Assembly (NCBI GenBank): GCA_023558315.1 | Contig: JAMJVX010000045.1 | Span: 1 to 40,000, forward strand | Direction of reading: 5' to 3' | Length of the DNA stretch: 40,000 bases | Origin: Flavobacteriaceae bacterium | GTDB lineage: Bacteria; Bacteroidota; Bacteroidia; Flavobacteriales; Flavobacteriaceae | Shown: positions 1 through 13,863 of the stretch, piece after piece | How positions within the stretch are numbered: the first letter of the stretch is position 1 | How the letters are laid out: each line of letters starts with the position of its first letter | Position numbers and translations under genes: made by a program | Notes under the pieces: model-generated | Database searches by the model: none | The model's input: the letters and a program-made list of their open reading frames with translations, nothing else | What the model was told of the DNA's origin: nothing

Positions 1-100
<100 letters not shown>

Positions 101-108
101 GATAACTG

Positions 109-1497
109 TTAATTATTGTTAAAAACTTGTTTAACTAATTCTTTGATAGTTAAATTTTCTAATTTAGAAATAATAGGTGAAAAATTGTCTTGATTATTTT
201 TCCAATGCAATGTGTCGTTATAAATTATACCCAAAAAGTAATACATTTCTGACAATTCAGTTTTGTTATTTTCTGCAAATTCTAATTTATCTTTAGTTTT
301 AGTTATCTCTACAAATGTTTTCTTTAATTCAACTTTTTCAATCTTATCATAGACATTTTTCTCAATACCAACTCTAATAGCTACACAAACAGCAAATGGG
401 TTATATTTTTCATTTTCTAAATATTTATTTTTTTCCTTTAAAGTATAATTAACAAAACATGATTTTGTTTCCCAATTATTATTCAACCCTATTTTTTTTA
501 AATGTTCGCTTATCTCTATATCTTCGGGATAAAAATGAAATAAATATTTTGATAAAAAATTTTCTACATCTTTTTTATTCCTATATATTAATAATTGTAC
601 CATAGGGTCATTACTTTTAATATTGTTATTTGCTCCATTTAAATAAAATATTTTTTGTTTGTTAAATACAAAATTTTTGAAATAATAAGGATTTAAATGA
701 GTTAATATTATTGGATAAATATTTTTTCCTAATGTTTTAAATTCATCAATAAATTTTGAAATATAATATTGAACCGCTATCAGATTTGCATCATCCAAAT
801 AGTCAAAAACTTCATCAATGATTAAAATGTTAGAATTCTTCTTTAATTCCAATTTTGCTTTAAAAAGCATTATTATAAATGATAAAATATCTCTTTGACC
901 ATTAGATATACTAGATATTTTCTGTGGAAAATTAGCAACTAAATAGTCTCCACTTTTTTTTAATTTAACTTTTAACCACGCATTGTTAAAACTTTGCAAT
1001 GTATTTTCAAAATATTCTTTATTTTTTTTATACTCAAGATATTTTTTTTTGTCATTACTCTTAACAATCTTACATATACTAATATCTGGTATTTCTACTC
1101 TTGCTGTTGCTGTCCCAAATCTAGAACCTATTCCTTTTGGTTTTACCTGATTATTTATCACAAAACAACTAAATTGTTTTTTAATTTCATTTATATTTTC
1201 ATTTGCTTCCAAACTTTTTTGTACTCTTCCCTTATTATAATTGATTATTATTCTTGGCGAATTTTTTTTAGTTTGTTCATAATGATCCTCCTCTGAAAGA
1301 GTAATTTTATTACGATTAATTATTGATTGAAATGCTTTAGCAAAAGAACTTTTCCCAAAACCATTAGGCGCAACAAATATATTAGGAATATTAGGGTGTA
1401 TTCCTTTAATGTAATTATCAAACTTAAATATCTTATTTTTTATCCCTTTTATATTAAAAATTTGTATTCGCTTAATAAATTCAGTAGTTTTATTCAT
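109..1497 (-). CDS. lone AAA/ABC-type ATPase (RecF/SMC-like head), function unknown
   Basis: A 462-residue protein with a full ABC-type ATPase head. The Walker A motif is APNGFGKS (43-50), a signature-like SSISNGQRD sits at about 196-204, Walker B is NILIIDEV (about 223-230, D228 and E229), and the H-loop is ILTHLNP (H267). The span between Walker A and the signature is too short for an SMC-type coiled coil. The C-terminal part (about 300-462) matches nothing I can name. It contains AIRVGIEK (R375, E379) and NDTLH (N427, H431), which loosely recall the R..E and N..H layout of PrrC/RloC-type nuclease tails; that resemblance is only an inference. No TOPRIM domain is apparent. The gene stands alone and is strikingly AT-rich: two sampled 60-base rows are about 20-22% G+C. 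It may be a transferred defence-type gene or an orphan repair-type ATPase. Confidence 0.75.
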   Translation of the reverse strand: MNKTTEFIKRIQIFNIKGIKNKIFKFDNYIKGIHPNIPNIFVAPNGFGKSSFAKAFQSIINRNKITLSEEDHYEQTKKNSPRIIINYNKGRVQKSLEANENINEIKKQFSCFVINNQVKPKGIGSRFGTATARVEIPDISICKIVKSNDKKKYLEYKKNKEYFENTLQSFNNAWLKVKLKKSGDYLVANFPQKISSISNGQRDILSFIIMLFKAKLELKKNSNILIIDEVFDYLDDANLIAVQYYISKFIDEFKTLGKNIYPIILTHLNPYYFKNFVFNKQKIFYLNGANNNIKSNDPMVQLLIYRNKKDVENFLSKYLFHFYPEDIEISEHLKKIGLNNNWETKSCFVNYTLKEKNKYLENEKYNPFAVCVAIRVGIEKNVYDKIEKVELKKTFVEITKTKDKLEFAENNKTELSEMYYFLGIIYNDTLHWKNNQDNFSPIISKLENLTIKELVKQVFNNN

Positions 1498-1588
1498 ATT
1501 TTTCTATTATTTACTTGTTCCAAGTTAATATATTTAATGATCATATATCAACAACTTCAAAATTAATTAATTTATACTATATATTTGA

Positions 1589-1604
1589 TGATAAACACTT
1601 ATCA
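1589..1604. other. small inverted repeat in the 1498-1670 intergenic gap
   Basis: TGATAA and TTATCA form a 6-base stem with a 4-base loop. A TATATTTG promoter-like box lies just before it on the plus strand (1580-1587). The gap otherwise shows only AT-rich sequence between the ATPase start and the SRP RNA promoter. The box could start a short transcript toward the SRP RNA gene, or it may be chance in AT-rich DNA. Confidence 0.25.
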
Positions 1605-1670
1605 ATTAAACATCCACTCAATCAGTCATATTATTTTATAAAGGGATATATTTTTTTATAAAAATGTTTT

Positions 1671-1678
1671 TATCTTTG
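1671..1678 (+). promoter_or_regulatory. -7 promoter box of the SRP RNA gene
   Basis: TATCTTTG matches the Bacteroidota -7 consensus TAnnTTTG exactly. It lies 5 bases before the first base of the folded SRP RNA, which is the spacing expected for transcription to start at about 1682-1684. No strong TTTG -33 element is visible upstream. Confidence 0.7.
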
Positions 1679-1682
1679 CACC

Positions 1683-1782
1683 GAGGTGAGTAGTTATACA
1701 TCAGCTCCTACTGAATCCCCCAGGGTGGAAACACAGCAAGGGTAGGTGGTTGTAGCGATGTGATAATTTACTTGCCTTTTTT
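1683..1782 (+). ncRNA. ffs: signal recognition particle RNA, small bacterial type (4.5S)
   Basis: The sequence holds the universal SRP RNA tip: CCCCCAGGGTGGAAACACAG followed by CAAGGG, that is, a GGAA tetraloop flanked by the conserved symmetric and asymmetric internal loops (about 1717-1742). The outer helix can be drawn directly. Bases 1684-1692 pair with 1769-1777 over nine pairs, including two G-U pairs. A run of six T follows at 1777-1782, so the closing helix doubles as an intrinsic terminator. The RNA scaffolds Ffh and its receptor FtsY for co-translational membrane targeting. Its length of about 100 bases fits the small bacterial class without an Alu domain. The ends are placed from the helix and promoter and could be off by a few bases. 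Confidence 0.93.
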
Positions 1783-1797
1783 AAATAAATACAACAT

Positions 1798-2460
1798 ATG
1801 AAATTTTTTATAGATACCGCAAACCTTGCTCAAATAGAAGAAGCACAAAAATTAGGAATTTTAGATGGCGTTACAACCAACCCATCATTAATGGCGAAAG
1901 AAGGCATTGTCGGAAAAGAAACAGTGTTAAATCATTACAAAGCAATTTGCGATATAGTAGATGGCGACGTCTCTGCAGAAGTTATCGCTGTAGATTTTGA
2001 TGGAATGGTTAAGGAAGGAGAAGAGTTAGCAAGTCTCCACCCACAAATAGTCGTTAAAATACCTATGATAAAAGAAGGCTTAAAAGCGATTAAATATTTC
2101 TCTGAAAAAAATATAAAAACGAATTGTACGCTTATTTTTTCTGCGGGACAAGCACTATTAGCTGCTAAAGCTGGTGCTACTTATATTTCTCCTTTTATAG
2201 GACGCTTAGATGATATTTCAAGTAGCGGTATGCACCTTATAAATGAGATTAAAGAGATTTACAACCATTACAAATTTGATACCCAAATATTAGCCGCATC
2301 AGTGAGACACACAATGCATATCATTGAATGTGCTAAACTAGGAGTAGATGTAATGACTGGACCTTTGAGTGCTATAACTGGACTTCTAAAACATCCTCTT
2401 ACGGATAGCGGGCTTAAAACATTTTTAGAAGACCATAAAAAAAGTAATGCTGGCAACTAA
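1798..2460 (+). CDS. tal: transaldolase of the small FSA/TAL family
   Basis: A 220-residue single-domain TIM barrel, the usual length of this subfamily. It starts with MKFFIDTANLAQIEEA, has the conserved GVTTNPSL (24-31), and carries the Schiff-base lysine in VVKIPM (K87). The family contains both fructose-6-phosphate aldolases and true transaldolases. The aldolase carries Gln and Tyr at two active-site positions where transaldolases carry Glu and Phe. Here they read E61 (SAEVIA) and F133 (SPFIGR), so a transaldolase that moves dihydroxyacetone units in the non-oxidative pentose phosphate pathway is the better call, although many databases label such proteins fructose-6-phosphate aldolase. 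It follows the SRP RNA gene directly and may depend on read-through or an unseen promoter. It converges with the Nudix gene. Confidence 0.92.
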   Translation: MKFFIDTANLAQIEEAQKLGILDGVTTNPSLMAKEGIVGKETVLNHYKAICDIVDGDVSAEVIAVDFDGMVKEGEELASLHPQIVVKIPMIKEGLKAIKYFSEKNIKTNCTLIFSAGQALLAAKAGATYISPFIGRLDDISSSGMHLINEIKEIYNHYKFDTQILAASVRHTMHIIECAKLGVDVMTGPLSAITGLLKHPLTDSGLKTFLEDHKKSNAGN

Positions 2461-2482
2461 CGGAATACTAATTTAGTTAGTT
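2455..2482. terminator. hairpin spanning both stop codons of convergent tal and Nudix genes
   Basis: AACTAAC (2455-2461) is perfectly complementary to GTTAGTT (2476-2482), with a 14-base loop. The stems include the TAA of the plus-strand gene and the stop of the minus-strand gene. No clear T-tract follows, so it is a candidate bidirectional terminator or 3'-end stabiliser rather than a textbook intrinsic terminator. Confidence 0.4.
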
Positions 2483-3100
2483 TACAAACTTATTTATCTT
2501 TTTCTTTTGCAAAAGCATTTTTATATTTTTATAAGAATTATTAAGTAATTCTGGAATTTCATTTGTCTTTTTCCAAACTGATAATTCTATATTTTCTTCT
2601 TGTTGTGGGATTAATTCAATTGTGCTTTCAGTTTCCATCAAATACCAATAGGTTTTCTTTAATTTATACCGATTATGATGATGAAAAATATGATAGGATT
2701 TAGATGCTTTTTTAACAATTTTCACGTTGTCAAGTCCCGTTTCTTCTTGAACTTCTCTGATAGCTGCTGATTTTTTCCCCTCTTTCTTCTCTAATTTTCC
2801 TTTGGGTAAATCCCATTTATTATTTCTAAAAATAAATAAAATATTATTTGTCTTTGTGTTTTTTACTATTCCTCCAGCAGCTTCTACAACAGGAAATATT
2901 TTTTCAAAAATCTTTACGAGTTTACTTTTATTAGGGTGATATAAATAGATTTTTTTTATCTTCTTATTTTCTAATGTTTTTATAATATTCTTCTTGAATT
3001 TTTTATGTAATAATACAAATGTAGAATTTGTAAGAGCCTTATAATCATCAACACTATCAATCAATAAAATCTTTTTCTTATGATAAAAAATTACATTCAT
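2477..3100 (-). CDS. Nudix hydrolase with an N-terminal extension
   Basis: A 207-residue protein. An exact Nudix box (Gx5Ex7REUxEExGU) runs from GKLEKKEG to REVQEETGL at roughly residues 101-123. The glutamates of REVQEE bind the metal, and the family cleaves nucleoside diphosphates linked to another moiety. The substrate cannot be told from sequence. The first 70 or so residues (a lysine-rich stretch, then YLYHPNKSKLVKIFEK) lie outside the Nudix fold. Similar two-part proteins are common next to envelope genes in Flavobacteriia. The gene is the last of a minus-strand run with the EnvC-like and YfhO genes (4-base spacing), so it is probably co-transcribed with them. The ATG at 3100 is the natural start, because the upstream gene stops at 3105. 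Confidence 0.9.
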   Translation of the reverse strand: MNVIFYHKKKILLIDSVDDYKALTNSTFVLLHKKFKKNIIKTLENKKIKKIYLYHPNKSKLVKIFEKIFPVVEAAGGIVKNTKTNNILFIFRNNKWDLPKGKLEKKEGKKSAAIREVQEETGLDNVKIVKKASKSYHIFHHHNRYKLKKTYWYLMETESTIELIPQQEENIELSVWKKTNEIPELLNNSYKNIKMLLQKKKINKFVN

Positions 3101-3104
3101 AATA

Positions 3105-4307
3105 CTATATTTTTAATATCCATGAAAGTGGGTCTTCTGGATTCATATTTGAGAAAATACTAAAAAACAATACACTTTCTTTTGTTTGAGGATTGGTAAA
3201 CACTTCCCCAATATTTTCATTGCTATTTACTCTTTGCCCTTTTTTGACGTATACTTTTTCTAAATTTTTGTAAGCTGTAACAAAATTTCCGTGTTTAATT
3301 AACACTGTGGGATTACTCCCTTTAAAACTTAGAACTGAAAGCACTCTACCTTTAAAAACGCTTCTAACTTTCGCATTTTGTGGCGTGGCAATACCAATCC
3401 CATTACTTTGAATAATTGTAGTAGGGACTACTGGGTGTTTTTGCCTGCCAAATTTTCTAACAACCACTCCTTTTTCTACAGGCCAAGGCAAGTTTCCTTT
3501 ATTTTTTATAAATTGATATGCCATTTTCTTTGCCTCTGGAGTGAGTTTAAATGTCAAACTTTTAGCATTATTACTAGATGCCGCTATCGCTTCTTTTATT
3601 AATCTTTCTATTTGATTATCAATCGCTTTTGACTCTTGCTCTTTTATCTTAATTTGTAAAGTATACTCACTCTCTTTATTTTTAAAAACAGTAACTAATC
3701 TGTTTTGCTCTGCTTTCTCATCCTGCAATTCTTTTTGCAGAAAAATATTAGCCAATGTAATCTTTTCTTGTTCTTTTTTTTGAGATAAAAGCCTCTCTCC
3801 TATTTGCTCCATCTCAGTTTTCTTTTCTATTATTTCCTCCCCTTGATTTTTTCTATATGAGATATATTGTTGTAAATATTGAGAGCGTTTATAAAGCTGT
3901 GTAAAATTAGATGAGGAAAGTAAAAACATAAGTTTGTTTTGTTTAGACCTATTTTTATATGATCTTAAAAGCATTTCCGCATATTCCTTTTTTAAAACAC
4001 GAAGTTCATTCGTTATTGTTTTAATTTTATTTTGGTTATCTTCTATTGTACTTACTAAAAGTTCTAATTCTTGATTTGCGATATCTATAAGTTCCGATTG
4101 TGCTTTTATCTTAATATTTATGTTTTCAATTTTCTGAAGAATATTTTCAGTTTCGCTCTTATTATTCAGTAAAAGGGTATTTATCTTTTTAATCTCCTGT
4201 TGGAGTTTTAACTTTTGTTCTTTTAATTGTTGTTGTTTATTGTTTTGAGAATATAAATACAAATTAAAAAAAACAGTTATAATAAAAAAATAAAAATATT
4301 TTTTCAT
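3105..4307 (-). CDS. EnvC-like murein hydrolase activator (degenerate LytM/M23 domain)
   Basis: A 400-residue secreted protein. A signal peptide (residues 1-20, ending in YSQNNK) is followed by a long Gln/Lys/Glu-rich coiled coil (about 22-245) and a C-terminal LytM fold (about 275-400). Active M23 peptidases hold zinc with an HxxxD motif and an HxH motif. Here the first region reads GIGIATPQ and the last reads LFFSIFSN, so the ligands are missing. Loss of zinc ligands with retention of the coiled coil is the hallmark of EnvC-type proteins, which activate periplasmic N-acetylmuramoyl-L-alanine amidases during cell separation. Such a role here is inferred from domain architecture. Its start overlaps the end of the YfhO gene by 4 bases, which implies translational coupling. 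Confidence 0.88.
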   Translation of the reverse strand: MKKYFYFFIITVFFNLYLYSQNNKQQQLKEQKLKLQQEIKKINTLLLNNKSETENILQKIENINIKIKAQSELIDIANQELELLVSTIEDNQNKIKTITNELRVLKKEYAEMLLRSYKNRSKQNKLMFLLSSSNFTQLYKRSQYLQQYISYRKNQGEEIIEKKTEMEQIGERLLSQKKEQEKITLANIFLQKELQDEKAEQNRLVTVFKNKESEYTLQIKIKEQESKAIDNQIERLIKEAIAASSNNAKSLTFKLTPEAKKMAYQFIKNKGNLPWPVEKGVVVRKFGRQKHPVVPTTIIQSNGIGIATPQNAKVRSVFKGRVLSVLSFKGSNPTVLIKHGNFVTAYKNLEKVYVKKGQRVNSNENIGEVFTNPQTKESVLFFSIFSNMNPEDPLSWILKI

Positions 4308-6730
4308 CGCCTTTTTTTATATTGAAAGAATATCAAACCACTAATAAGAACTGCTAATATAACTAAAAATGATATTTTTAAATTAGTCCCCAATCTTATA
4401 ACTTTTGGCTCAAAAACAAAACTTATATTATGATTTCCTTTTGGGACAAACAGCCCTCTTAATATATAATTTGTATTAAAATAAGGGGCTTCTTCCCCAT
4501 CAATAAATGCTTTCCACCCATCCTTATAGTATACTTCAGAAAAAACTACAAACTGATTTTCACTACTATTAAACTTGTAGTCTAATTTTATTGGTGAATG
4601 TTTTACCAATTCGATGTTTGCCAAAGTATCTTTTTTGAACATTGATTGAGGAATGCGTTCAAAATCCTTCGTTAATAAGATTGCTTTATGCTTTAATTCG
4701 TTCTCTCTAATTTTAGATAAATAATCATCATACGAAGTTGCACCTACTAAACTATCCACAATCCAAGCGTTACCTAGGACATTTTCATTTCCCATAACTT
4801 CTGTGCCTCCATTTTCCCCAGAATACAAAATATACTTTGTGTTTAATATATTCAACAATTTATCAGTTTGATTATGGTATCCCAAATAATCATAAAGTTC
4901 TTGGTAATTTCTCAACTTTGCCCCATGATACCCTCCAATTGAGTTGTGAAAATAGGAACTCCTTGCGCTATTTAATCCCCCTTGCACTTCAAACACTCTA
5001 TATCTTTGTGTCGTATCTTTAAGAATCTGCTTATCAGCTTCTGTTTGGTTAAAAGTATTTTTTATTCTACGGTTATGAATAAATAAATCATTATCTATAT
5101 ATCTATTGGCAATGCTTAATAAATCTATAAATACGATTCCCAATACTATAAAATACACATAGTTTCTCTTTAATTTTTGTTTTATAAATAGAAATAAACT
5201 AATAGCTATTCCAAATATTATGAGAGTTGCTCTAAGTATGTCTTGTGTGAAAATTCGTTTTCTGTCTTCTATAATTACCTCTAATAATTCATCCCCATAA
5301 TATTGTTGTATATACGAATCTGAACCTCCTTGAAATGAAAATGTACTTTTAAATAATAAAAGTAAAATCATTCCTCCAAGCAAAATATATGACGTTCGCA
5401 AAAGATATTTTAATTTTTGTGCATTTTCTTTCTCTAAAAAATGATAGATGCCAAAAGTTGCTAGAATGGGAACACATAATTCTAATACCACTTGTATAGA
5501 TGAGACGGCTCTAAACTTGGAATATAAAGGGAAATATTGTATGAAAAATTGCGTTAAAAAACCTAAATTATCACCCCATGAGAGAAGTAACGAAAAAACA
5601 ACTCCAATCGTTAACCAAATTTTATTAACCCCTTTTAGTATAAAAAATGCTAATAGCGCAAGAAAAAAAACGGATATCCCAATATAAGCGGGCGCTTCTA
5701 AAATTGGTTGTGTACCCCAGTAGGTAGGTAGATTTTTTGTAAATCCTTTGGCTTGACTATTTGGAACCCCATTTTGAGTTAAAAAAGTATATGTTTCTGA
5801 CTTTTTACCAACATCTTCTCGTGACCCTCCGCCTTGCACTCTTGGTACAAGCAAATTTAAACTTTCAAATATTCCATAGCTATATTGTGTAATATACTCA
5901 TAATCTAATCCCCTTGTTTTTTCTTTGATAGAACCATCAAAATTCTTTTCTAACTGACTCGCGCCTCTAATACTGTGCTTACTATATTCTGCAGTGGCTA
6001 ATATTTGTGTCGCATTCAGCCCTAAGGCAAATATCCCAGATGCACAAAGTATAGCAAGCTGTTTAAAAAACACTTTTTGTTGATTTTCTTTAAACGCTTT
6101 ATATGCGTTTACTATACAAAAAATTAATAAGAGTAAAAATGTATAATACGTAATTTGATAGTGATTTGCTTTTATCTGAAGTCCTAAAAATAATGTAGCT
6201 AATAAAAAACCCTTTAAAAATTTATTTTGAAAAATGAGATATGCGCCTCCTAAAAATAAAGGCATATAGGCAAGTGCTAGCGCTTTAGTATTATGACCTA
6301 CTTGGAGAATTATTAATAAATAGGTAGAAAATCCGTATGCTAATGCTCCTAAAATTGCATACCGATAGGGTATTTTCAAAATATATAAAAAAGTAAATGC
6401 CCCAAATAAGTACAAAAAAAGTACAGAAGCAGGGTGCATAAATATTCTTACCTTACTATTTATTGCTCCCAAAAAATCTAAGGGATATTTTGCTCCTAGC
6501 AAATACGTAGGCATCCCAGAAAAAGCATTGTCAACCCAATATATTTCCTTTCCATCATCTCTAAACTCTTTCAATTGTTTTGACATCCCTCTATATTGCT
6601 GAATATCAGACTGGAGTAATTTCTTGCCTTCTAATAATGGGCTATAAAATAAAATTGATATTATTAGAAAAATTAAATTAATACCTAAAAAATAAAGAAC
6701 ATTTTTATTGTTTTTGAGAATTTTATTCAT
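4304..6730 (-). CDS. YfhO family polytopic membrane protein
   Basis: An 808-residue integral membrane protein. A first hydrophobic helix lies near residues 14-32 and is followed by a large extracytoplasmic loop (LLQSDIQQYRGM, then VDNAFSGMPTYLLGA). About a dozen further helices run to roughly residue 545, then a soluble domain of about 230 residues, and a final helix with a basic tail (FFQYKKRR). This is the layout of the YfhO family, thought to act in glycosylation of cell-surface polymers with GT-C-like topology. The acceptor and donor are unknown. The gene is first in the operon with the EnvC-like and Nudix genes and has its own -7 box at 6796-6803. Confidence 0.88.
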   Translation of the reverse strand: MNKILKNNKNVLYFLGINLIFLIISILFYSPLLEGKKLLQSDIQQYRGMSKQLKEFRDDGKEIYWVDNAFSGMPTYLLGAKYPLDFLGAINSKVRIFMHPASVLFLYLFGAFTFLYILKIPYRYAILGALAYGFSTYLLIILQVGHNTKALALAYMPLFLGGAYLIFQNKFLKGFLLATLFLGLQIKANHYQITYYTFLLLLIFCIVNAYKAFKENQQKVFFKQLAILCASGIFALGLNATQILATAEYSKHSIRGASQLEKNFDGSIKEKTRGLDYEYITQYSYGIFESLNLLVPRVQGGGSREDVGKKSETYTFLTQNGVPNSQAKGFTKNLPTYWGTQPILEAPAYIGISVFFLALLAFFILKGVNKIWLTIGVVFSLLLSWGDNLGFLTQFFIQYFPLYSKFRAVSSIQVVLELCVPILATFGIYHFLEKENAQKLKYLLRTSYILLGGMILLLLFKSTFSFQGGSDSYIQQYYGDELLEVIIEDRKRIFTQDILRATLIIFGIAISLFLFIKQKLKRNYVYFIVLGIVFIDLLSIANRYIDNDLFIHNRRIKNTFNQTEADKQILKDTTQRYRVFEVQGGLNSARSSYFHNSIGGYHGAKLRNYQELYDYLGYHNQTDKLLNILNTKYILYSGENGGTEVMGNENVLGNAWIVDSLVGATSYDDYLSKIRENELKHKAILLTKDFERIPQSMFKKDTLANIELVKHSPIKLDYKFNSSENQFVVFSEVYYKDGWKAFIDGEEAPYFNTNYILRGLFVPKGNHNISFVFEPKVIRLGTNLKISFLVILAVLISGLIFFQYKKRR

Positions 6731-6758
6731 GATTTGTTTTTGGTATATTGAATAAATG

Positions 6759-6779
6759 TATTTTTGATTTTTATTTTTG
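6759..6779 (+). promoter_or_regulatory. duplicated -7 promoter box of the barrel gene at 6806
   Basis: TATTTTTG occurs twice, at 6759-6766 and 6772-6779, inside a 13-base direct repeat (TATTTTTGATT). Both match TAnnTTTG. A TTTG at 6739-6742 stands 16 bases before the first copy. The second lies 27 bases before the ATG at 6806. Confidence 0.5.
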
Positions 6780-6795
6780 ATTAAAATAAAACAAG

Positions 6796-6803
6796 CAAAT
6801 ATA
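6796..6803 (-). promoter_or_regulatory. -7 promoter box of the YfhO-EnvC-Nudix operon
   Basis: On the minus strand this reads TATATTTG, an exact TAnnTTTG match, 65 bases before the YfhO start at 6730. It sits immediately before the ATG of the divergent plus-strand gene at 6806, so the two promoter regions overlap completely. Confidence 0.6.
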
Positions 6804-6805
6804 TA

Positions 6806-7747
6806 ATGAATATCGTTTATAAATATATTCTATACTTTTTTTTGTTGAATATCCAAAATATTTTCTCTCAATATACTGATATTATAAACACGAATAGGCC
6901 TAGCACCTCTATTGGCGCATTTTCAGTTGGAAAAGGAGTAATTCAAATAGAATCAGAATTAGAAACTAAAAGTTTTGTTCATAAAAGTTTTAACAACTCA
7001 ACATTACGAGGCAATAAATGGAATGCTTTTTTAAGATATGGTTTTCTTTTAGAAAAATTAGAACTCAATTTTGAATCAAGTTTTTTTCATGGAACTATAC
7101 TTGATAAAACATTTCCTATACATTTTGATGAAATCACTTATGGATTTACAAATAATACCTTAGGGGTGAAATATTTGTTGTTTGATCCATTTGTTAATCA
7201 AAATGAATCTCCTAATATTTACAGTTGGGATGCGAATAATAAGTTTAAATTTGAAAACCTAATTCCTGCTGTTTCAGTAACTTTTGGAATAAATCTCTAC
7301 ACTTTTTTTAATACGCTATTGCTAGAAAATAATCCCTACCCATATGAAGATTTATATAATTCTATTTACCTTTCACAATTTCAAAAAGCATTTGAAGAAC
7401 CATTAGTCACATCAAGGTTGACAATTGCAACCCAATCTATTTTATCTCCAAATATGACTCTGATATCCAATTGGACAATAGATAAAATTTTGGCAAACAA
7501 TTTATCCTTTGAGTATGTTTTCTCTTTTATATACTTATTTAATGATAAAATTAGTATGTTTATCGATAATAGAGGAGTGCAAAACGTATTATATTCTGAT
7601 GCTTTTTTCAGAATGGGATTGGCAGCTTTATCTACTAAAAATTTACAATTAGATGGGTTTGTCAGCACAAGTGTAAAAAACACCCCTTATCTACTTTCTC
7701 TAGGTTTTGGAGTTTCCTATAGATTGGACAGATTTAATAAAAATTAA
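6806..7747 (+). CDS. outer-membrane beta-barrel protein, transporter-like (PF13557 type)
   Basis: A 313-residue secreted protein. The signal peptide ends near residue 21 (NIFSQ) and is followed by DIINTNRPSTSIGAFSVGKG and a run of amphipathic strands (YGFLLEKLELNFE, NNTLGVKYLLF, FVSTSVKNTPYLLSLGFGVS) ending at an aromatic strand. The opening 'tdRPs.s.g..tvgkG..qiE' pattern is typical of the transporter/phenol-degradation meta-pathway barrel family common in Flavobacteriia. The transported compound is unknown. Neighbours are convergent or divergent, so it is a single-gene unit. The ATG at 6806 is supported by the promoter boxes just upstream. Confidence 0.72.
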   Translation: MNIVYKYILYFFLLNIQNIFSQYTDIINTNRPSTSIGAFSVGKGVIQIESELETKSFVHKSFNNSTLRGNKWNAFLRYGFLLEKLELNFESSFFHGTILDKTFPIHFDEITYGFTNNTLGVKYLLFDPFVNQNESPNIYSWDANNKFKFENLIPAVSVTFGINLYTFFNTLLLENNPYPYEDLYNSIYLSQFQKAFEEPLVTSRLTIATQSILSPNMTLISNWTIDKILANNLSFEYVFSFIYLFNDKISMFIDNRGVQNVLYSDAFFRMGLAALSTKNLQLDGFVSTSVKNTPYLLSLGFGVSYRLDRFNKN

Positions 7748-7758
7748 TAATTTTTATT
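7736..7758. terminator. perfect 10-bp AT hairpin across two convergent stop codons
   Basis: AATAAAAATT (7736-7745) and AATTTTTATT (7749-7758) are perfect reverse complements separated by three bases. The stem contains part of the TAA of the barrel gene (7745-7747) and of the phosphatase stop (7754-7756). The inner T-run and A-run place a U-rich arm in either transcript, so it can act in both directions. Confidence 0.55.
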
Positions 7759-8818
7759 CATTGTGATAATCAAATACCTCTTTCATCTTGAGAAAGATAT
7801 CTGTATTATCCATTATTCCAGAGAATTTTTTTGAAGAAGGACCATAGGCAAAAACAGGAACCATTGTAGCGGTATGTTTAAGCGTTGTAAAACTACCCTT
7901 CATAGCTTCAATACTTTCTCCATCAAATGCAAATCCTCCTGTTTCGTGGTCTGCAGTAACTATCACTAATGTATTAGTATTTCTTTTAGCATACGCTAAC
8001 GCCTCTTTAACAGCACCATTAAAATCTTTAAATTCACTCACAATATAATCCGTATCATTTGCATGACCTCCCCAATCAATTTGTGCTCCTTCTATCATCA
8101 TAAAAAAAGGTTGCTTTTCAGGATTTCTAAATTTATCTAATGTCGCTTTCGTTATTGCTCCTAGCGAAGGAGTTCTTCCTTTTGAGACAGGAATAGGAGA
8201 TTCCTCTGCAATAAAATATCCTATATTAGGATTTTTAGAATCTATAAATGATTGTAAATCATTCACTATATCGTATTTTTTACTCATCTTCTCTAAAATG
8301 TTAATACTGTCTGAGCGTTGGTCAAAATGTTTCTTGCCTCCTCCTACAAATATATCTACATCATGATTGCTCAATTGGCTAGCAATAGTTTCGTACTCCC
8401 CTCTACTTAACACTTTTGCATAGAAAGCTGCTGGAGTAGCATGTGTTATGGTTGCGGTACTTAATAAAGCGGATCTATAGTTTTTTGCTTCAAATATTTC
8501 TAATATTGAGGTTAGTGTATCATTAGTCGCATTTATTCCAAGAGTTCCGTTGTTTGTTTTCTCGCCACTTGCCATAGCAGTTGCACTAGAAGCAGAATCC
8601 GTCACCAAGTTATCAGCCGCATGAGTTTTCACAAGTCCGATGGTTGTAAATTCCTCCAAAGCAGACTTGTTTCCATTTGCGTACATAGAAGCGGAAATTT
8701 GTGAAAGCCCCATCCCATCTCCAATTAAAAGAATAATATTAGGGGTGGTGTGCTTTGAACAATCATTACAGCAACTAAAAAAAATAGGGAATAAAAGAAG
8801 TAATACGATTTTTTTCAT
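7754..8818 (-). CDS. alkaline phosphatase lipoprotein (PhoA superfamily)
   Basis: A 354-residue protein with a lipoprotein signal peptide (lipobox near FFSCC, residues 13-17). The phosphatase metal site begins with LIGDGMG (D34), and the nucleophilic serine is S75 in VTDSASSATA. The later metal ligands appear in MIEGAQIDWGGHANDTD and TADHETGG. It would release inorganic phosphate from monoesters at the cell envelope. At 354 residues it is shorter than E. coli PhoA but close to other bacteroidotal members. No PHO-box-like element was recognised upstream, so phosphate control cannot be claimed. It converges with the barrel gene at 7747. The 145-base gap on its 5' side holds no clear feature. 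Confidence 0.93.
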   Translation of the reverse strand: MKKIVLLLLFPIFFSCCNDCSKHTTPNIILLIGDGMGLSQISASMYANGNKSALEEFTTIGLVKTHAADNLVTDSASSATAMASGEKTNNGTLGINATNDTLTSILEIFEAKNYRSALLSTATITHATPAAFYAKVLSRGEYETIASQLSNHDVDIFVGGGKKHFDQRSDSINILEKMSKKYDIVNDLQSFIDSKNPNIGYFIAEESPIPVSKGRTPSLGAITKATLDKFRNPEKQPFFMMIEGAQIDWGGHANDTDYIVSEFKDFNGAVKEALAYAKRNTNTLVIVTADHETGGFAFDGESIEAMKGSFTTLKHTATMVPVFAYGPSSKKFSGIMDNTDIFLKMKEVFDYHNE

Positions 8819-8963
8819 TATTGATACAAATTAAATAAGGGTGCTAATTTAATGAACTTATTAAGTTATACTATAAATTTATCTGCTTTTTTATTATTTG
8901 AACTCTTTATATAATTTACATAGTATTAACTCGTAGAATTATTTGGATACATCTCTCATTGCA

Positions 8964-9704
8964 TCACTCACTTGTCGTTTTAAAATTTTTAATCTCTCCA
9001 TAACTAGTGCCAATGCTACTTGTAGCAAAAGAACGAACGTAATAGGTCGTGTTTTCATTTAGTCCATTAATATTCGTGATAAAACTTCCCGTAGTAGTCC
9101 TTAGACCTATATCGTTTTTACTTATACCGCTTCCTGTAAGTGAGAGAGCAGTATCATTAGTATGCCATAGGTGACCATGCGAGGTCACTTTTATACTTCC
9201 TATATTTTCTAAAGACCCCTCCACACTTGCACCACTTATCGTAATACCACTGATAGTTCCTGTACTTACCTCAGAGAGGGCGTGTTTGGTGATATACATA
9301 TTATAACGACAACAATACACATTATTTACCATATAATAATTTCCAATACTTAAAGTATCTCCTTCTTTTAATGCGCTATATAATTTTTTTTTTGTTTCTA
9401 TATTAAATATAATATATTCAACGGGTAATTGTCTTTTTACTGCTTTTCTTTTCGCCGCAGATTTATCATATTCTGTTGTAATGAAAGTTTTTACAATTAC
9501 TTTGGTAGATTCGTTTGGTAATGTATCAAATGTAATAATTTCATTTCTTATACCTTCATTACTTATATCACCTCTATAGGTTTTTTTATTAGTTATATCT
9601 TCAATAACTATGTCTAAAATCTCATTATTTAAGTCTGCTATTTCAAGCCAGCAATTATAAAAAATTACAGTGATAAATAATAAGTATACTCTTATTTTCT
9701 TCAT
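8964..9704 (-). CDS. lipoprotein with a C-terminal fibronectin III-like domain
   Basis: A 246-residue protein. Its signal peptide leads to a probable lipidated cysteine (C18 in VIFYNCWLE). Residues about 20-145 form an unrecognised domain with a CC pair in NNVYCCRYNM. Residues about 148-246 look like a fibronectin III/Ig-type strand sandwich, with TSHGHLWHTN and the strand pattern LNENTTYYVRSFATSSIGTS. That C-terminal pattern is common in surface proteins of Bacteroidota. Its start codon is fused to the stop of the 48-residue ORF upstream (TAATG), so the two are translationally coupled. Its function is unknown; a role in surface binding is only a guess. Confidence 0.65.
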   Translation of the reverse strand: MKKIRVYLLFITVIFYNCWLEIADLNNEILDIVIEDITNKKTYRGDISNEGIRNEIITFDTLPNESTKVIVKTFITTEYDKSAAKRKAVKRQLPVEYIIFNIETKKKLYSALKEGDTLSIGNYYMVNNVYCCRYNMYITKHALSEVSTGTISGITISGASVEGSLENIGSIKVTSHGHLWHTNDTALSLTGSGISKNDIGLRTTTGSFITNINGLNENTTYYVRSFATSSIGTSYGEIKNFKTTSE

Positions 9705-9850
9705 TATTCATATAGTTTAAATAGTTCATCAAGGTGTTTTCTTCTTTCATTCTCTGGATATTTCTCTACTACAATAGAAAAAGTAAATAGCCCTACTATT
9801 AGGGATATACAAACGGCTTTGATAATGTTTTTTTTGGTTTTAGTATTCAT
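9704..9850 (-). CDS. 48-residue single-pass membrane peptide coupled to the downstream lipoprotein
   Basis: A short ORF read on the minus strand from an ATG at 9848-9850 to a TAA at 9704-9706. It begins MNTKTKKNIIKAVCISL, has a hydrophobic helix at about residues 9-28, and ends in a charged tail (YPENERRKHLDELFKLYE). The lysine-rich N-terminus, hydrophobic middle and charged C-terminus suggest an inner-membrane peptide with its tail outside the cytoplasm. Its stop overlaps the ATG of the 246-residue lipoprotein by one base (TAATG). A promoter box (TATATTTG with TTTG 17 bases upstream) lies in front of it. No family was recognised. Confidence 0.6.
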   Translation of the reverse strand: MNTKTKKNIIKAVCISLIVGLFTFSIVVEKYPENERRKHLDELFKLYE

Positions 9851-9892
9851 GATTTTTTATTTTTTAAAGTTAAACTAAATCATAGTAAAAAC

Positions 9893-9917
9893 ACAATAGG
9901 GTATTATTCCCTATTGT
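9893..9917 (-). promoter_or_regulatory. hairpin at the very 5' end of the 48-residue ORF mRNA
   Basis: ACAATAGGG (9893-9901) and CCCTATTGT (9909-9917) are perfect 9-base complements around a 7-base loop. With transcription starting about 5-7 bases after the minus-strand -7 box (9927-9934), this hairpin would form at or within a few bases of the mRNA 5' end. No gene reads into it from either side, so it is not a terminator for a visible gene. It may be an mRNA-protecting stem or an operator palindrome. Confidence 0.5.
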
Positions 9918-9926
9918 ATTTTGAAT

Positions 9927-9955
9927 CAAATATATACGATTATTTTAAAATCAAA
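9927..9955 (-). promoter_or_regulatory. promoter of the 48-residue ORF and lipoprotein unit
   Basis: On the minus strand TTTG (complement of 9952-9955) and TATATTTG (complement of 9927-9934) are separated by 17 bases. Both elements match the Bacteroidota -33/-7 consensus. The start codon at 9850 lies about 75 bases downstream. Confidence 0.65.
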
Positions 9956-10026
9956 GAAAAAAGTATTTTTTTTATGTTTAATAGTATATTTTATATATTA
10001 CCTTGACAAAGGCATACGTTGTTTAG

Positions 10027-10034
10027 TATATTTG
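10027..10034 (+). promoter_or_regulatory. -7 promoter box of queA-sucA
   Basis: TATATTTG matches TAnnTTTG and lies 16 bases before the queA ATG, giving a very short leader. A TTG within CCTTGACAAAG about 21 bases upstream could serve as the -33 element. Confidence 0.6.
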
Positions 10035-10050
10035 CATAAATTTTAAAAAT

Positions 10051-11100
10051 ATGAAATTAGAGCGCTACAATTTTAAATTCCCTGAAAACTTGATTGCTGA
10101 ATATCCTGCTGAAAACAGAGATGAAGCAAGAATGATGGTCTTAAATAGAAAAGAACAAACTATTGAACATAAAACGTTTAAAGACATCGTGAACTATTTC
10201 GACGAAGATGATTTAATGATTTTAAATAATACTCGCGTATTTCCTGTTCGTCTATATGGAAACAAAGAAAAAACAGGCGCTGCCATAGAAGTGTTTTTAC
10301 TAAGAGAATTAGATAAAGACCAAAGGCTTTGGGATGTAATTGTAGAACCCGCTCGAAAAATTAGAATAGGAAATAAACTTTATTTTGGAGAAGATGAAAT
10401 GCTAATTGCTGAAGTGATTGACAATACAACCTCTAGAGGAAGAACAGTACGTTTTCTATTTGATGAGAATTACGAAGATTTTGAAGAAAAAATTAGGATA
10501 TTAGGTAAGGTCCCTCTGCCTGAATACATAAATAGAAAACCCGATGAATCAGATGTAGATAGGTATCAAACTATATATGCAAAAGTTGATGGCGCAATTA
10601 TACCCCCATCCGCTGGATTTCACTTTTCTAAACACGTAATTAAAAGAATGGAAATAAATGGAGTCGATTTTACTTCGGTAACTTTGCACATTGGGTTAGA
10701 AGAATATCATACAATAGAAGTAGAAGATTTATCAAAGCATAAGACAACATCTGAAGAGTACATAATAAATGAAAAAGCTGCGGGAATTGTTAATAGTAAG
10801 ATTGAGAAAAAGAAAAGAATTTGTGCTGTAGGACTCAGTACTTTAAAAGCATTAGAGAGTTCATTAACCTCACAGAACAAATTAATGGATAGTGCTGGAT
10901 GGACACACAAATTCATTTATCCTCCTTATAATTTTTCTATTGCTAATGCATTAGTAACTGGTTTTCATATGCCGAAATCTACATTGTATGCAACAGTATG
11001 TGCATTTGGAGGTTTAAAATTTGTAAAGAAAGCATATGAAGAAGCTATTAAAGAAGGGTATAAATTCTGCGTATACGGAGATGCAATGTTGATTATTTAA
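10051..11100 (+). CDS. queA: S-adenosylmethionine:tRNA ribosyltransferase-isomerase
   Basis: A 349-residue protein of normal QueA length. Family motifs include an N-terminal [20 protein letters not shown], the [13 protein letters not shown] segment, the PPSAGFHFS motif near residue 190, [14 protein letters not shown], and the C-terminal YGDAMLI. QueA moves the ribosyl part of S-adenosylmethionine onto 7-aminomethyl-7-deazaguanine at the wobble base of GUN tRNAs, giving epoxyqueuosine. It acts in the cytoplasm on tRNA. No other queuosine genes are in the window. It is followed by sucA after only 6 bases, so both are probably read from the promoter at 10027. Confidence 0.96.
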
Positions 11101-11106
11101 TTTATT

Positions 11107-13863
11107 ATGGATAAATATTCTTTTCTAAATGCTTCTCATTCTTCATTTTTTGAAGAATTATATGAAAAATATTTGAGTGCTCCTGATACTATTGAGCCTA
11201 GTTGGCGTGCATTTTTTCAAGGATTTAATTTTGGAATTGAAAATGGCAATGGATTTTTAGAAGAAAATCAAAGTGACGTTCCCGAATCTATTCATAAAGA
11301 ATTTTTAGTAATTAAATTTATTGATGAATACGCCAAAAGAGGTCACCTTTTTACAAAAACAAACCCCGTAAGAAATAGGCGAAAATACTCGCCAACATTA
11401 GCTATTGAAAATTTTGGGTTAGCTTCTACAGATCTTGATTCCGTATTTAATGCTGGAGAAATTATTGGAATTGGTGCAGCCACATTGAGAAATATTATAG
11501 AAAAATTGAATCTAATTTACTGTAATTCAATTGGAATTGAATATATGTATATAAGAAACAGAGAGCGTATTCAATGGATTCAAAATGAATTATATAAAAA
11601 CAATAATTCCCCTAATTTTTCTATAGATAAAAAAAAATACATCCTAAAAAAATTAATACAAAGCACTGGATTTGAACGATTTTTACATACAAAATATGTG
11701 GGGCAAAAACGCTTTTCATTAGAAGGTGGGGAATCACTTATCCCTGCATTAGATGCTATTATTGAAGAGGCTGCTAATTCTGGAGTTAAAGAATTTGTCA
11801 TGGGAATGCCGCATAGAGGTAGACTTAATGTACTCTCTAATATATTTGGAAAATCTAGCAAAGACATTTTTAATGAATTTGAAGGAAAAGATTATCAAGA
11901 TGTGGTTTTTGATGGAGATGTGAAATATCATTTAGGTTGGACTTCAATTAGAGAAACAAATGGCGGAAAAAAAATAAATATGAGTCTCGCCCCAAATCCT
12001 TCTCATTTAGAAACTGTTGGAAGTATTGTGGAAGGAATAACTAGGTCTAAATTAGACAACAAGCTCAGCCAAAATTTTTCAGAAATAGTACCCATCATTA
12101 TACATGGAGATGCTGCTATTGCGGGTCAAGGAATTGTGTATGAAATAATACAGATGGCTAAATTAGATAGTTTTAAAACTGGAGGAACTATACATATTGT
12201 CATTAATAATCAAATTGGATTTACTACAAATTATTTAGATGCGAGGTCAAGTACTTATTGTACTGATGTTGCAAAAGTGACGTTAAGTCCAGTTTTACAT
12301 GTAAATGGAGACGACGTGGAAGCCGTCACCCATGCTTCATTATTTGCCCTAAAATATAGAATGCAATTTAATCAAGACGTGTTCATTGATTTATTAGGAT
12401 ATAGAAAATATGGTCATAACGAAGGGGATGAACCTAGATTCACACAACCTCAGTTATATAAATTGATTGATAAACAAAAAAATATAAGAGATTTATATGC
12501 TGCAAAACTAATTCAAGAAAATGTTATAACTCAAGAGTACTTTAAAGGTGAGGAAGAAAAATACAAAGAGGGGCTAGAACAAAAATTAGAAGATTCTAAA
12601 AAAGATATGCAGATTGATATTACCTCTTTCTTAAAAAAGGAATGGGATTATTTTTTGAAAGTAGATAGTAATTCTGAGATTACAAAACTTGTAAACACAA
12701 AAGTATCTAAAGAAAATTTAGATATAGTCGCAAATGCTATTTTTCCTAATGATTCTAAATTTTTAAGAAAAATTCAACGCCTAAATGAGGAAAGAAAAAA
12801 AATGTATTTTGAGAAAGGAGAATTAGATTGGGCGATGGGGGAACTACTTGCATACGGTACTCTTTTACAAGAAAAAAATAATGTGCGTATCTCGGGGCAA
12901 GATGTAGAAAGAGGAACTTTTTCCCACAGGCATGCAGTTTTAACAATTGAAAATGAGGGCAATGAAGAAGAAATTATCCCCCTAAATGATTTTGCTAAAC
13001 AGCATAATAGTTCTTTTTACATTTATAACTCTCACCTATCAGAATATGGCGTTTTAGGTTTTGAATATGGCTACGCTATGGCTAGCCCAAATACTCTTAC
13101 TATTTGGGAAGCACAATTTGGAGATTTTTCTAATGGCGCACAAATAGTGATTGACCAATATATTGCTTCAGCTGAATCTAAATGGAAAACACTTTGTGGA
13201 GTGGTATTACTTCTCCCTCATGGGTACGAAGGGCAAGGAGCTGAACACTCATCCGCACGAATAGAACGTTTTTTACAATTATGTGCCAAAAACAATATGT
13301 TTATTGCCAATTGTACTACGCCATCAAATTATTTTCACTTATTAAGAAGACAATTAAAAGCTAAATATAGAAAACCCCTTGTAGTTTTTACTCCTAAAAG
13401 TTTATTGAGACACCCTGAGGTGCACTCGCCGATTAGCGATTTTACTGAAGGTAGTTTTGAACATATCATTCCAGAGAAACAAATCACACCAAAAGAGACC
13501 AAAACATTAGTTTTTTGTTCTGGAAAGTTTTATTACGATTTGTTAAAAGCGAGAAGAGAAAAAAATAGAGAGGATGTTGCTTTGGTGCGATTGGAACAAC
13601 TGTACCCACTACCATATGAGGAAATTAGAGCTATTCTAAAAACCTATAAACATGTGAAAGATGTTGTTTGGGCACAGGAAGAGCCAAGAAATATGGGAGT
13701 TTGGAACTTTTTACTCCTGCATCTTCCAGAAGCGAAAAATTTCCGCCCTGCGACTCGTCGTTTTTACAATACTCCTGCCTCAGGAAATCCTACAAGGTTT
13801 AATAGAAGACAAAAGGAAATTATTGATTACGTGTTTGATAAGTCTAAAGACAATTTATATTGA
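11107..13863 (+). CDS. sucA: 2-oxoglutarate dehydrogenase E1 component
   Basis: A 918-residue thiamine-diphosphate enzyme of the usual length. It opens with the conserved E1 N-terminal segment (LYEKYLSAPDTIEPSWRAFF), and the core includes MGMPHRGRLNVL, IHGDAAIAGQGIVYE and LLGYRKYGHNEGDEPRFTQP. The C-terminal transketolase half has WEAQFGDFSNGAQIVIDQYI and LPHGYEGQGAEHSSARIERF. It decarboxylates 2-oxoglutarate in the TCA cycle and passes the succinyl group to the E2 subunit. In many Flavobacteriia the E2 gene follows at once. Here a convergent lipoprotein gene follows instead, so E2 must be encoded elsewhere. The gene starts 6 bases after queA. An AT hairpin at 13867-13887 closes the unit. Confidence 0.97.
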   Translation: MDKYSFLNASHSSFFEELYEKYLSAPDTIEPSWRAFFQGFNFGIENGNGFLEENQSDVPESIHKEFLVIKFIDEYAKRGHLFTKTNPVRNRRKYSPTLAIENFGLASTDLDSVFNAGEIIGIGAATLRNIIEKLNLIYCNSIGIEYMYIRNRERIQWIQNELYKNNNSPNFSIDKKKYILKKLIQSTGFERFLHTKYVGQKRFSLEGGESLIPALDAIIEEAANSGVKEFVMGMPHRGRLNVLSNIFGKSSKDIFNEFEGKDYQDVVFDGDVKYHLGWTSIRETNGGKKINMSLAPNPSHLETVGSIVEGITRSKLDNKLSQNFSEIVPIIIHGDAAIAGQGIVYEIIQMAKLDSFKTGGTIHIVINNQIGFTTNYLDARSSTYCTDVAKVTLSPVLHVNGDDVEAVTHASLFALKYRMQFNQDVFIDLLGYRKYGHNEGDEPRFTQPQLYKLIDKQKNIRDLYAAKLIQENVITQEYFKGEEEKYKEGLEQKLEDSKKDMQIDITSFLKKEWDYFLKVDSNSEITKLVNTKVSKENLDIVANAIFPNDSKFLRKIQRLNEERKKMYFEKGELDWAMGELLAYGTLLQEKNNVRISGQDVERGTFSHRHAVLTIENEGNEEEIIPLNDFAKQHNSSFYIYNSHLSEYGVLGFEYGYAMASPNTLTIWEAQFGDFSNGAQIVIDQYIASAESKWKTLCGVVLLLPHGYEGQGAEHSSARIERFLQLCAKNNMFIANCTTPSNYFHLLRRQLKAKYRKPLVVFTPKSLLRHPEVHSPISDFTEGSFEHIIPEKQITPKETKTLVFCSGKFYYDLLKARREKNREDVALVRLEQLYPLPYEEIRAILKTYKHVKDVVWAQEEPRNMGVWNFLLLHLPEAKNFRPATRRFYNTPASGNPTRFNRRQKEIIDYVFDKSKDNLY

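Follow-up and report, generated by a model that had tools for sequence, protein, structure and literature searches.

The gene at positions 109-1497 of the window (the whole stretch of 40,000 nucleotides analysed here) is most readily interpreted as an unnamed one-protein conflict or defence system, a PrrC/RloC-like ABC-HEPN ribonuclease, a reading to which we give a probability of roughly 0.6. It is based on the predicted fold of the ATPase, on residues which are invariant in the family, on a HEPN-like predicted fold of the C-terminal domain and on the genomic contexts of the relatives. The initial annotation had proposed a single-gene defence ATPase with a HEPN-like nuclease tail; fold and context support this architecture, and from them we infer the ribonuclease activity and the role in defence. 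The locus comprises the following features.

2..100, plus strand: 3' end of a gene which we take to be glmS, the name given initially (C-terminal peptide reading at 2..97), convergent with the ABC-HEPN-like gene
109..1497, minus strand: ABC-HEPN-like gene, one intact frame with an ATG start, 462 aa
112..630, minus strand: C-terminal helical HEPN-like domain, residues 290-462 (predicted structure, VIA-align)
205..207, minus strand: H431, proposed catalytic histidine, invariant in 82/82 aligned members
217..219, minus strand: N427, N in 78/82 and D in 4/82 aligned members
361..363, minus strand: E379, invariant in 82/82 aligned members
373..375, minus strand: R375, invariant in 82/82 aligned members
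640..1497, minus strand: ABC ATPase part of the Rad50/RecF/SMC/PtuA type, residues 1-286 (predicted structure matches)
697..699, minus strand: H267, switch histidine by analogy with ABC ATPases, conserved in relatives
790..828, minus strand: Walker B and D-loop ILIIDEVFDYLDD, residues 224-236, conserved in relatives
889..906, minus strand: ABC signature SNGQRD, residues 198-203, conserved in relatives
1042..1047, minus strand: point between residues 151 and 152 where an insert of about 130 residues is missing (alignment with 81 other members)
1345..1371, minus strand: Walker A APNGFGKSS, residues 43-51, from the sequence, conserved in relatives
1558..1565, minus strand: TAATTTTG, possible Bacteroidota promoter element, 68 nt upstream of the ATG
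1677..1781, plus strand: SRP RNA (RF04183, 71.6 bits), divergent from the ABC-HEPN-like gene

The gene belongs to a genome of 1.56 Mb, the sole representative of its genus among the genomes searched, and sits at the start of contig C45. Base 1 of the window is also the first base of this contig, which is why only about 100 bases of glmS are visible. The placement between glmS and the SRP RNA gene is as initially described, and the window holds no defence gene and no HNH, helicase or other partner gene beside it. With a G+C content of 22.4%, against 30.4% for the whole window, the gene has the lowest value among the 32 listed open reading frames of at least 150 aa. The AT-richness pointed out in the initial annotation is thus real, but the contrast drawn with a row of ftsH at 43% is too large, since no listed frame as a whole exceeds 39.7%. 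The element TAATTTTG was read against TAnnTTTG, which we take to be the Bacteroidota promoter consensus; judging from the window's own frequency, 0.17 matches would be expected in the stretch upstream of the ATG. The idea that the glmS-ffs interval is a conserved insertion hot spot found no support in 30 SRP RNA loci of relatives (1.5 kb per side): the 32-residue glmS peptide is in none of them, and transaldolase is in 24. As judged by eye, 25 of the 30 share one similar protein upstream of the SRP RNA, presumably a glutaminyl cyclase, which indicates that the SRP RNA region is arranged differently in the genome of the window. For the region at 1677-2460 of the window, many relatives have a frame of about 270-290 aa between the SRP RNA and transaldolase.

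Checked for invariant presence at this place, the gene was found in two of the 149 genomes of its bacterial family, the window's own included. The window protein gave weak matches only, mostly to generic ATPase models, in searches against Pfam, PADLOC, NCBIfam and PHROGs, and the Pfam and NCBIfam scans (E up to 10) found neither TOPRIM nor another named domain in its C-terminal part, in agreement with what had first been noted. Five relatives likewise gave no TOPRIM match (Pfam). The members scanned with Pfam (five), PADLOC (five and five, one of these scans giving the best 25 of 62 families) and NCBIfam (eight) matched no specific model: AAA_15 lies just above the Pfam cut-off for the member at locus L005, and the other matches of the relatives are to generic ATPases. 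A match of the window protein and relatives to mad3, weak and covering ATPase stretches, was rejected. A search of genome contigs with the window protein alone returned no relative, and one with a five-member alignment returned 157 stretches encoding a relative, 80 of which, corresponding to 78 loci, were kept. Relatives were also found on three plasmids and on six viral contigs (on one of these by a short fragment only), and none in the phage records. When 395 genomes of the phylum were searched with the profile, the best few candidates being scored for most of them, 19 had a match at E 0.001 and three, again including the window's own, reached full-family scores. The tree contains 38 rows from Bacteroidota, 20 from Pseudomonadota, 5 from Bacillota and 2 from Campylobacterota, plus seven further phyla; it is a quick tree with long branches, in which the place of the window protein is unsure. 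No report of this ABC-HEPN-like family was found in the literature searched, whose full texts were covered in part (PMC2610378, PMC3710099, PMC11555353, PMC10853773, PMC12839542, PMC8618304 and PMC9668308 included).

Nearly all relatives are about 575-603 residues long, compared with 462 for the window protein. In the alignment of 82 rows, from which duplicates (L007, L054), broken or cut genes (L019, L081, L084) and loci with no usable frame (L085, L092) were left out, the middle region counts 12 residues in the window protein and 138-148 in the 81 other members, a difference which is absent from the initial annotation. The missing insert falls between the strand at 139-143 and the helix at 150-170 of the window protein; this helix of 21 residues is the only one there in the model, which bears out the initial statement that there is no long coiled coil. 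As far as the alignment goes, the window copy would be a shortened, solitary version of the family, a minimal one without the insert of about 130 residues. Since the insert is missing only here, the copy may be altered or inactive, and one alternative is that the deletion uncoupled ATPase and effector and that the gene is drifting in a small AT-rich genome. The long end branch of the window protein (1.14 in the tree of aligned members), its unusual composition and the low G+C content of its gene would all suit such a history, as would its being the only one of 82 members with this gap. It is hard to reconcile, however, with an intact frame of 462 aa in which, among the columns conserved at 85% or more (82 rows), departures are found only at four of 87-90% outside the insert, and at none conserved at 91% or more. 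The structure without the insert is furthermore predicted at high confidence, and PrrC (341-416 aa) is active without the long insert of RloC, according to the sections of PMC2610378 available to us. Decay is for these reasons considered unlikely.

The model of the full protein has a pLDDT of 90.9, and that of the C-terminal domain alone 92.5. The ATPase part of the full model matches chains of Rad50, SMC, RecF and PtuA, and the ATPase motifs are complete, as first described, from Walker A and SNGQRD to Walker B/D-loop and H267. For the C-terminal domain, Foldseek gave nothing at E 0.001 against PDB and BFVD. When Foldseek's own 247 candidates for this domain were re-ranked with VIA-align, the best matches were 1wty (Z 5.5), 5yep (5.3), 8xeh (5.1) and 8yuf (4.9), the next one being at 3.9; the four cover 103-110 residues with an rmsd of 3.9-4.3 Å, and the program warns that a Z below 8 (below about 13 for helical bundles) may reflect no more than a shared arrangement. 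Two of them, 8xeh and 8yuf, are named HEPN in their PDB titles, and we take 1wty and 5yep to be HEPN proteins as well. A match of the C-terminal half to a non-nuclease domain, which would have spoken against the proposal of the initial annotation, was not found in these comparisons; the four best matches are to HEPN proteins, with modest scores. In the model, the second main helix carries E379, and H431 follows directly on the third, with inserted helices separating the two. This predicted topology fits the description of HEPN domains, whose acidic residue belongs to helix 2 and whose catalytic histidine closes helix 3 (PMC3710099, seen in part), and suggests a HEPN-like domain. The classical HEPN motif Rx4-6H was found in none of the 82 aligned members, and searching PDB sequences with the window protein or with the profiles of the family and of the C-terminal part returned weak ATPase or chance matches only. 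The HEPN toxins of HEPN-MNT modules (5yep, 8xeh, 8yuf) are among the best structural matches, for about residues 344-462, but they differ in that the Z score is only about 5 and that the family, without the Rx4-6H motif, is fused to an ABC ATPase.

The likeness of the N-terminal part to Rad50, SMC and RecF structures, together with RecF matches in NCBIfam which are far below the cut-off, could also indicate a RecF/SMC-like ATPase of DNA repair or recombination, the helical C-terminal domain being structural or DNA binding instead of a nuclease. This is rather improbable, given that nine C-terminal residues (R306, H321, R375, E379, T401, K404, H431, K445 and L446) are invariant in all 82 members and that eight of them are polar or charged. 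The sparse distribution of the gene and its occurrence in cassettes, on a satellite-like island and in restriction operons (see below) likewise argue against a repair function.

The residues singled out by the initial annotation (R375, E379, N427 and H431) were found as stated, and they form a triad of the PrrC/RloC type, which makes the comparison drawn there with these two nucleases an apt one. RloC has a conserved Arg-X3-Glu-X36-52-His, matching Arg320-Glu324-His356 of PrrC, and its activity in vivo is abolished by alanine at any of the three positions (PMC2610378, same sections). The pattern R-X3-E-X50-53-H is present in all 82 aligned members, with X51 in the window protein; the gap between E and H is of 50, 51, 52 and 53 residues in 11, 53, 17 and 1 members, respectively, the last exceeding the published X36-52 range by one. 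Amongst the proteins retrieved from Bacteroidota, most RloC-like ones read RRILE...NDGSH or related forms and PrrC-like ones LRxxxE...SH, the consensus of the present family being VRxxIE...IYNDGMH. The R, E and H are aligned in register with RloC by hhalign, with a local score for the C-terminal profile that was reached by 2 of 100 column shuffles; in global mode it was reached by 1 of 100, but the alignment is then a meaningless one of 14 columns. Against PrrC, the score of the C-terminal profile was reached by 80 of 100 column shuffles, which is no better than chance. With 2 in 100 shuffles for RloC and nothing for PrrC, common descent is suggested by the sequences but not proven.

Membership of the family in PrrC or RloC is accordingly not supported by sequence comparison. 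The window protein has no match to AAA_13, the PADLOC PrrC model or PDC-S06 up to E 10, and five members have none to AAA_13 and five none to PrrC or PDC-S06 at 1e-6. A phmmer search of the PDB (E 0.01) with one RloC-like and one PrrC-like protein gave no match. The family resembles RloC in the succession of an ABC ATPase and a C-terminal domain with R-X3-E-X36-52-H, in the ND/NE-type motif before the histidine (NDGSH-type in RloC-like proteins) and, for some members, in the location in type I restriction loci, where RloC is sometimes found (PMC2610378, same sections). It differs from it in that the zinc-hook insert is RloC's, a zinc-hook CXXC being found in the insert of only two of the 82 members and not in the window protein, and in that the similarity of the C-terminal profile is only suggestive. 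The window protein is near PrrC in size, has the ABC ATPase and the triad residues, and some relatives share the type I restriction linkage; the spacing in the triad is however X31 in PrrC, and PrrC has a linked restriction operon, whereas the window gene is not beside one. A further group of ABC-HEPN proteins, APECO1_4465, is alike in its ABC ATPase, C-terminal HEPN domain and mobile element (PMC3710099, seen in part). The AAA ATPase of the APEC O1 P2-like prophage (L178 15933-18149), taken as APECO1_4465 from its position, matches RloC-like PDC-S06 models, but its alignment to the present family comprises ATPase residues plus a stretch following them, up to residue 353, without the triad. 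The most fitting reading of the family is that of an unnamed branch of ABC-HEPN-like proteins next to PrrC and RloC.

If the triad is catalytic, the family would work like PrrC and RloC. In the mechanism that we infer, from the dimer and the trigger to catalysis, RNA target and defence role, a dimer of the SMC/RecF-type ABC ATPase would sense infection or disturbed restriction, the signal being DNA ends or an inhibited restriction enzyme. Nucleotide binding or hydrolysis would then release the C-terminal HEPN-like ribonuclease, whose active site would consist of R375, E379 and H431, helped by N427. Its cleavage of host RNA, with tRNA as the likeliest target, would halt translation and abort the infection. 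The window protein could act alone or with a type I restriction system on another contig: HsdR, HsdS and HsdM are encoded together on contig C49 of the same genome, which leaves room for regulation in trans.

Type I restriction genes were found by tblastn in 15 of 84 loci (1.03 Mb); in each of the 15 they share the strand of the ABC gene, and the other 69 have none within the flanking DNA searched. Some of the hsd queries were proteins taken from these loci, and among the 15 are two in which the ABC gene is broken or cut (L019, L081) and one with a HsdR fragment (L077). On representative restriction-linked loci, Pfam finds the S, M and R subunits. None of 30 control loci carries hsd genes, a small sample of 93 kb, and the strand agreement is the better control. 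Two small proteins are found repeatedly next to the ABC gene where type I restriction genes are present (L027 5477-5971, L028 815-1656, L082 4916-5969, L056 7758-8309), one of 164 aa without a Pfam match and one from a family whose 183-aa member matches MtlR; they could be partners or antitoxins. On an Agrobacterium plasmid, a gene for a DNA cytosine methylase is followed by a small ORF which overlaps the ABC gene by 4 bases. On a viral contig (L091 4952-8740), the ABC gene stands between genes for a Mrr-type restriction nuclease, upstream, and an ADP-ribosylglycohydrolase, each of which shares a few bases with it.

In E. coli, a gene with 73.5% identity is present in two of 5426 genomes. Both copies lie about 4 kb from ssrA, surrounded by an integrase and genes which we take to be of satellite type, and they are probably located on a satellite-like island. 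Where near-identical copies occur across genera, the common part consists, besides short repeats, of the gene and short flanks: the Winogradskyella, Wocania and Aequorivita copies have 90-92% identity over 1.8-1.9 kb, and the Sinorhizobium plasmid copy has 88-90% over 1.9-2.1 kb with those of Paracoccus, a Rhizobiales isolate and a viral contig. Five genes annotated as having a TIR or Toll/interleukin receptor domain form a group downstream of the Sinorhizobium plasmid copy (L005 10625-14137).

In four loci from Flavobacteriaceae, namely L029 (Gramella), L052 (Winogradskyella), L068 (Flavobacterium) and L076 (Wocania), the ABC gene forms a single-gene cassette between attC-like sites. A pattern scan of L052 and L076 gave nine sites of 127-129 nt, with AAC near the start and CGTT plus a purine at the end. 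The five attC-like sites tested for folding as single-stranded DNA surpass nearly all shuffles, with z values of -2.6 to -4.0 and 0-2 of 200 shuffles as good. A covariance model built from the nine sites was searched over 87 sources including the window and gave 21 matches at E up to 1, every one of them on the plus strand of its locus; 12 lie outside the training set, two of the 12 being weaker than E 0.01, and a further site was found in this way at L052 5833-5964. The window has no match to the model at E up to 1, and its gene is not in a cassette. Close bounds on both sides of the ABC gene are given by the model for L029, L052 and L076 and by the sequence for L068. In integrons, the bases at the start of a cassette are complementary to the R'' box of the attC belonging to that cassette. 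Of the 15 intervals delimited by attC-like sites, 14 were scored for this; the interval after L029 3431 was left out as its CGTT was not found. The cassette start matches the R'' box at 9 of 9 nt in 12 cassettes, amongst them that of the ABC gene in all four loci; one of the other two matches at 8/9 and one, which precedes the interval left out and has its AAC placed by a simple rule, at 4/9. The six variable bases agree at a mean of 5.57 for cognate pairs, compared with 2.26 over 182 non-cognate ones. L076 encodes a tyrosine recombinase; compared by sequence with the PDB, it comes closest to a XerC-like protein, followed by IntI4. The arrays extend over 5833-13320 (L052), 4457-7886 (L076), 97-4504 (L029) and 369 to about 4350 (L068), with attC-like sites of about 128 nt and mostly perfect complementarity of cassette start and R'' box. 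Integrons have already been reported in Bacteroidota (PMC8618304, PMC9668308, both seen in part).

The cassettes also bear on the proposal that the protein is an ATPase of the PtuA/OLD type and acts together with a distinct nuclease, the gene of which would lie elsewhere. The ABC ATPase fold is common to the PtuA, OLD and Gabija ATPases, and chains of PtuA and Rad50 head the Foldseek list for the whole model; a TOPRIM domain or HNH/helicase partner is however not found with the window gene. The gene stands alone between attC-like sites in the four cassettes, it has a C-terminal domain of its own with invariant polar residues, and its neighbours form no cluster shared by more than 11 loci, the larger clusters examined being restriction genes, or recombinases by annotation or resemblance. 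Such a partnership is thus very improbable. The restriction linkage, satellite-like island and cassettes of some relatives fit a defence role.

Extended to all relatives, the reading as an ABC-HEPN ribonuclease describes a widespread autonomous defence family with a variant active site, R-X3-E...N-X3-H plus further invariant R, H, T and K. Its members would spread in two ways, by joining type I restriction operons as an additional gene and, in Flavobacteriaceae, as an integron cassette of one gene; the window copy would be the minimal version without the insert, and we put this wider picture at about even odds. If true, the suicide ribonucleases driven by ABC ATPases would gain, next to PrrC and RloC, a branch of divergent sequence to which no specific model was found to correspond in PADLOC of 2023. 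Lone travel as an integron cassette suggests that the protein carries all it needs or uses host factors, and the window copy, if active, would show how small an ATPase-effector unit can be.

Repeats of other kinds were seen around other copies. Those around two Flavobacterium copies, of about 121 nt (L058 5548, 7853, 7984, 10058) and about 76 nt (L060 7841, 12431), have no match to the attC-like model at E up to 1. Around the Aequorivita copy (L079 3189, 4171, 8138, 8713), dispersed repeats carry the hairpin TTACGGTTTTCCGTAA and, after it, a TATATTTG-like element.
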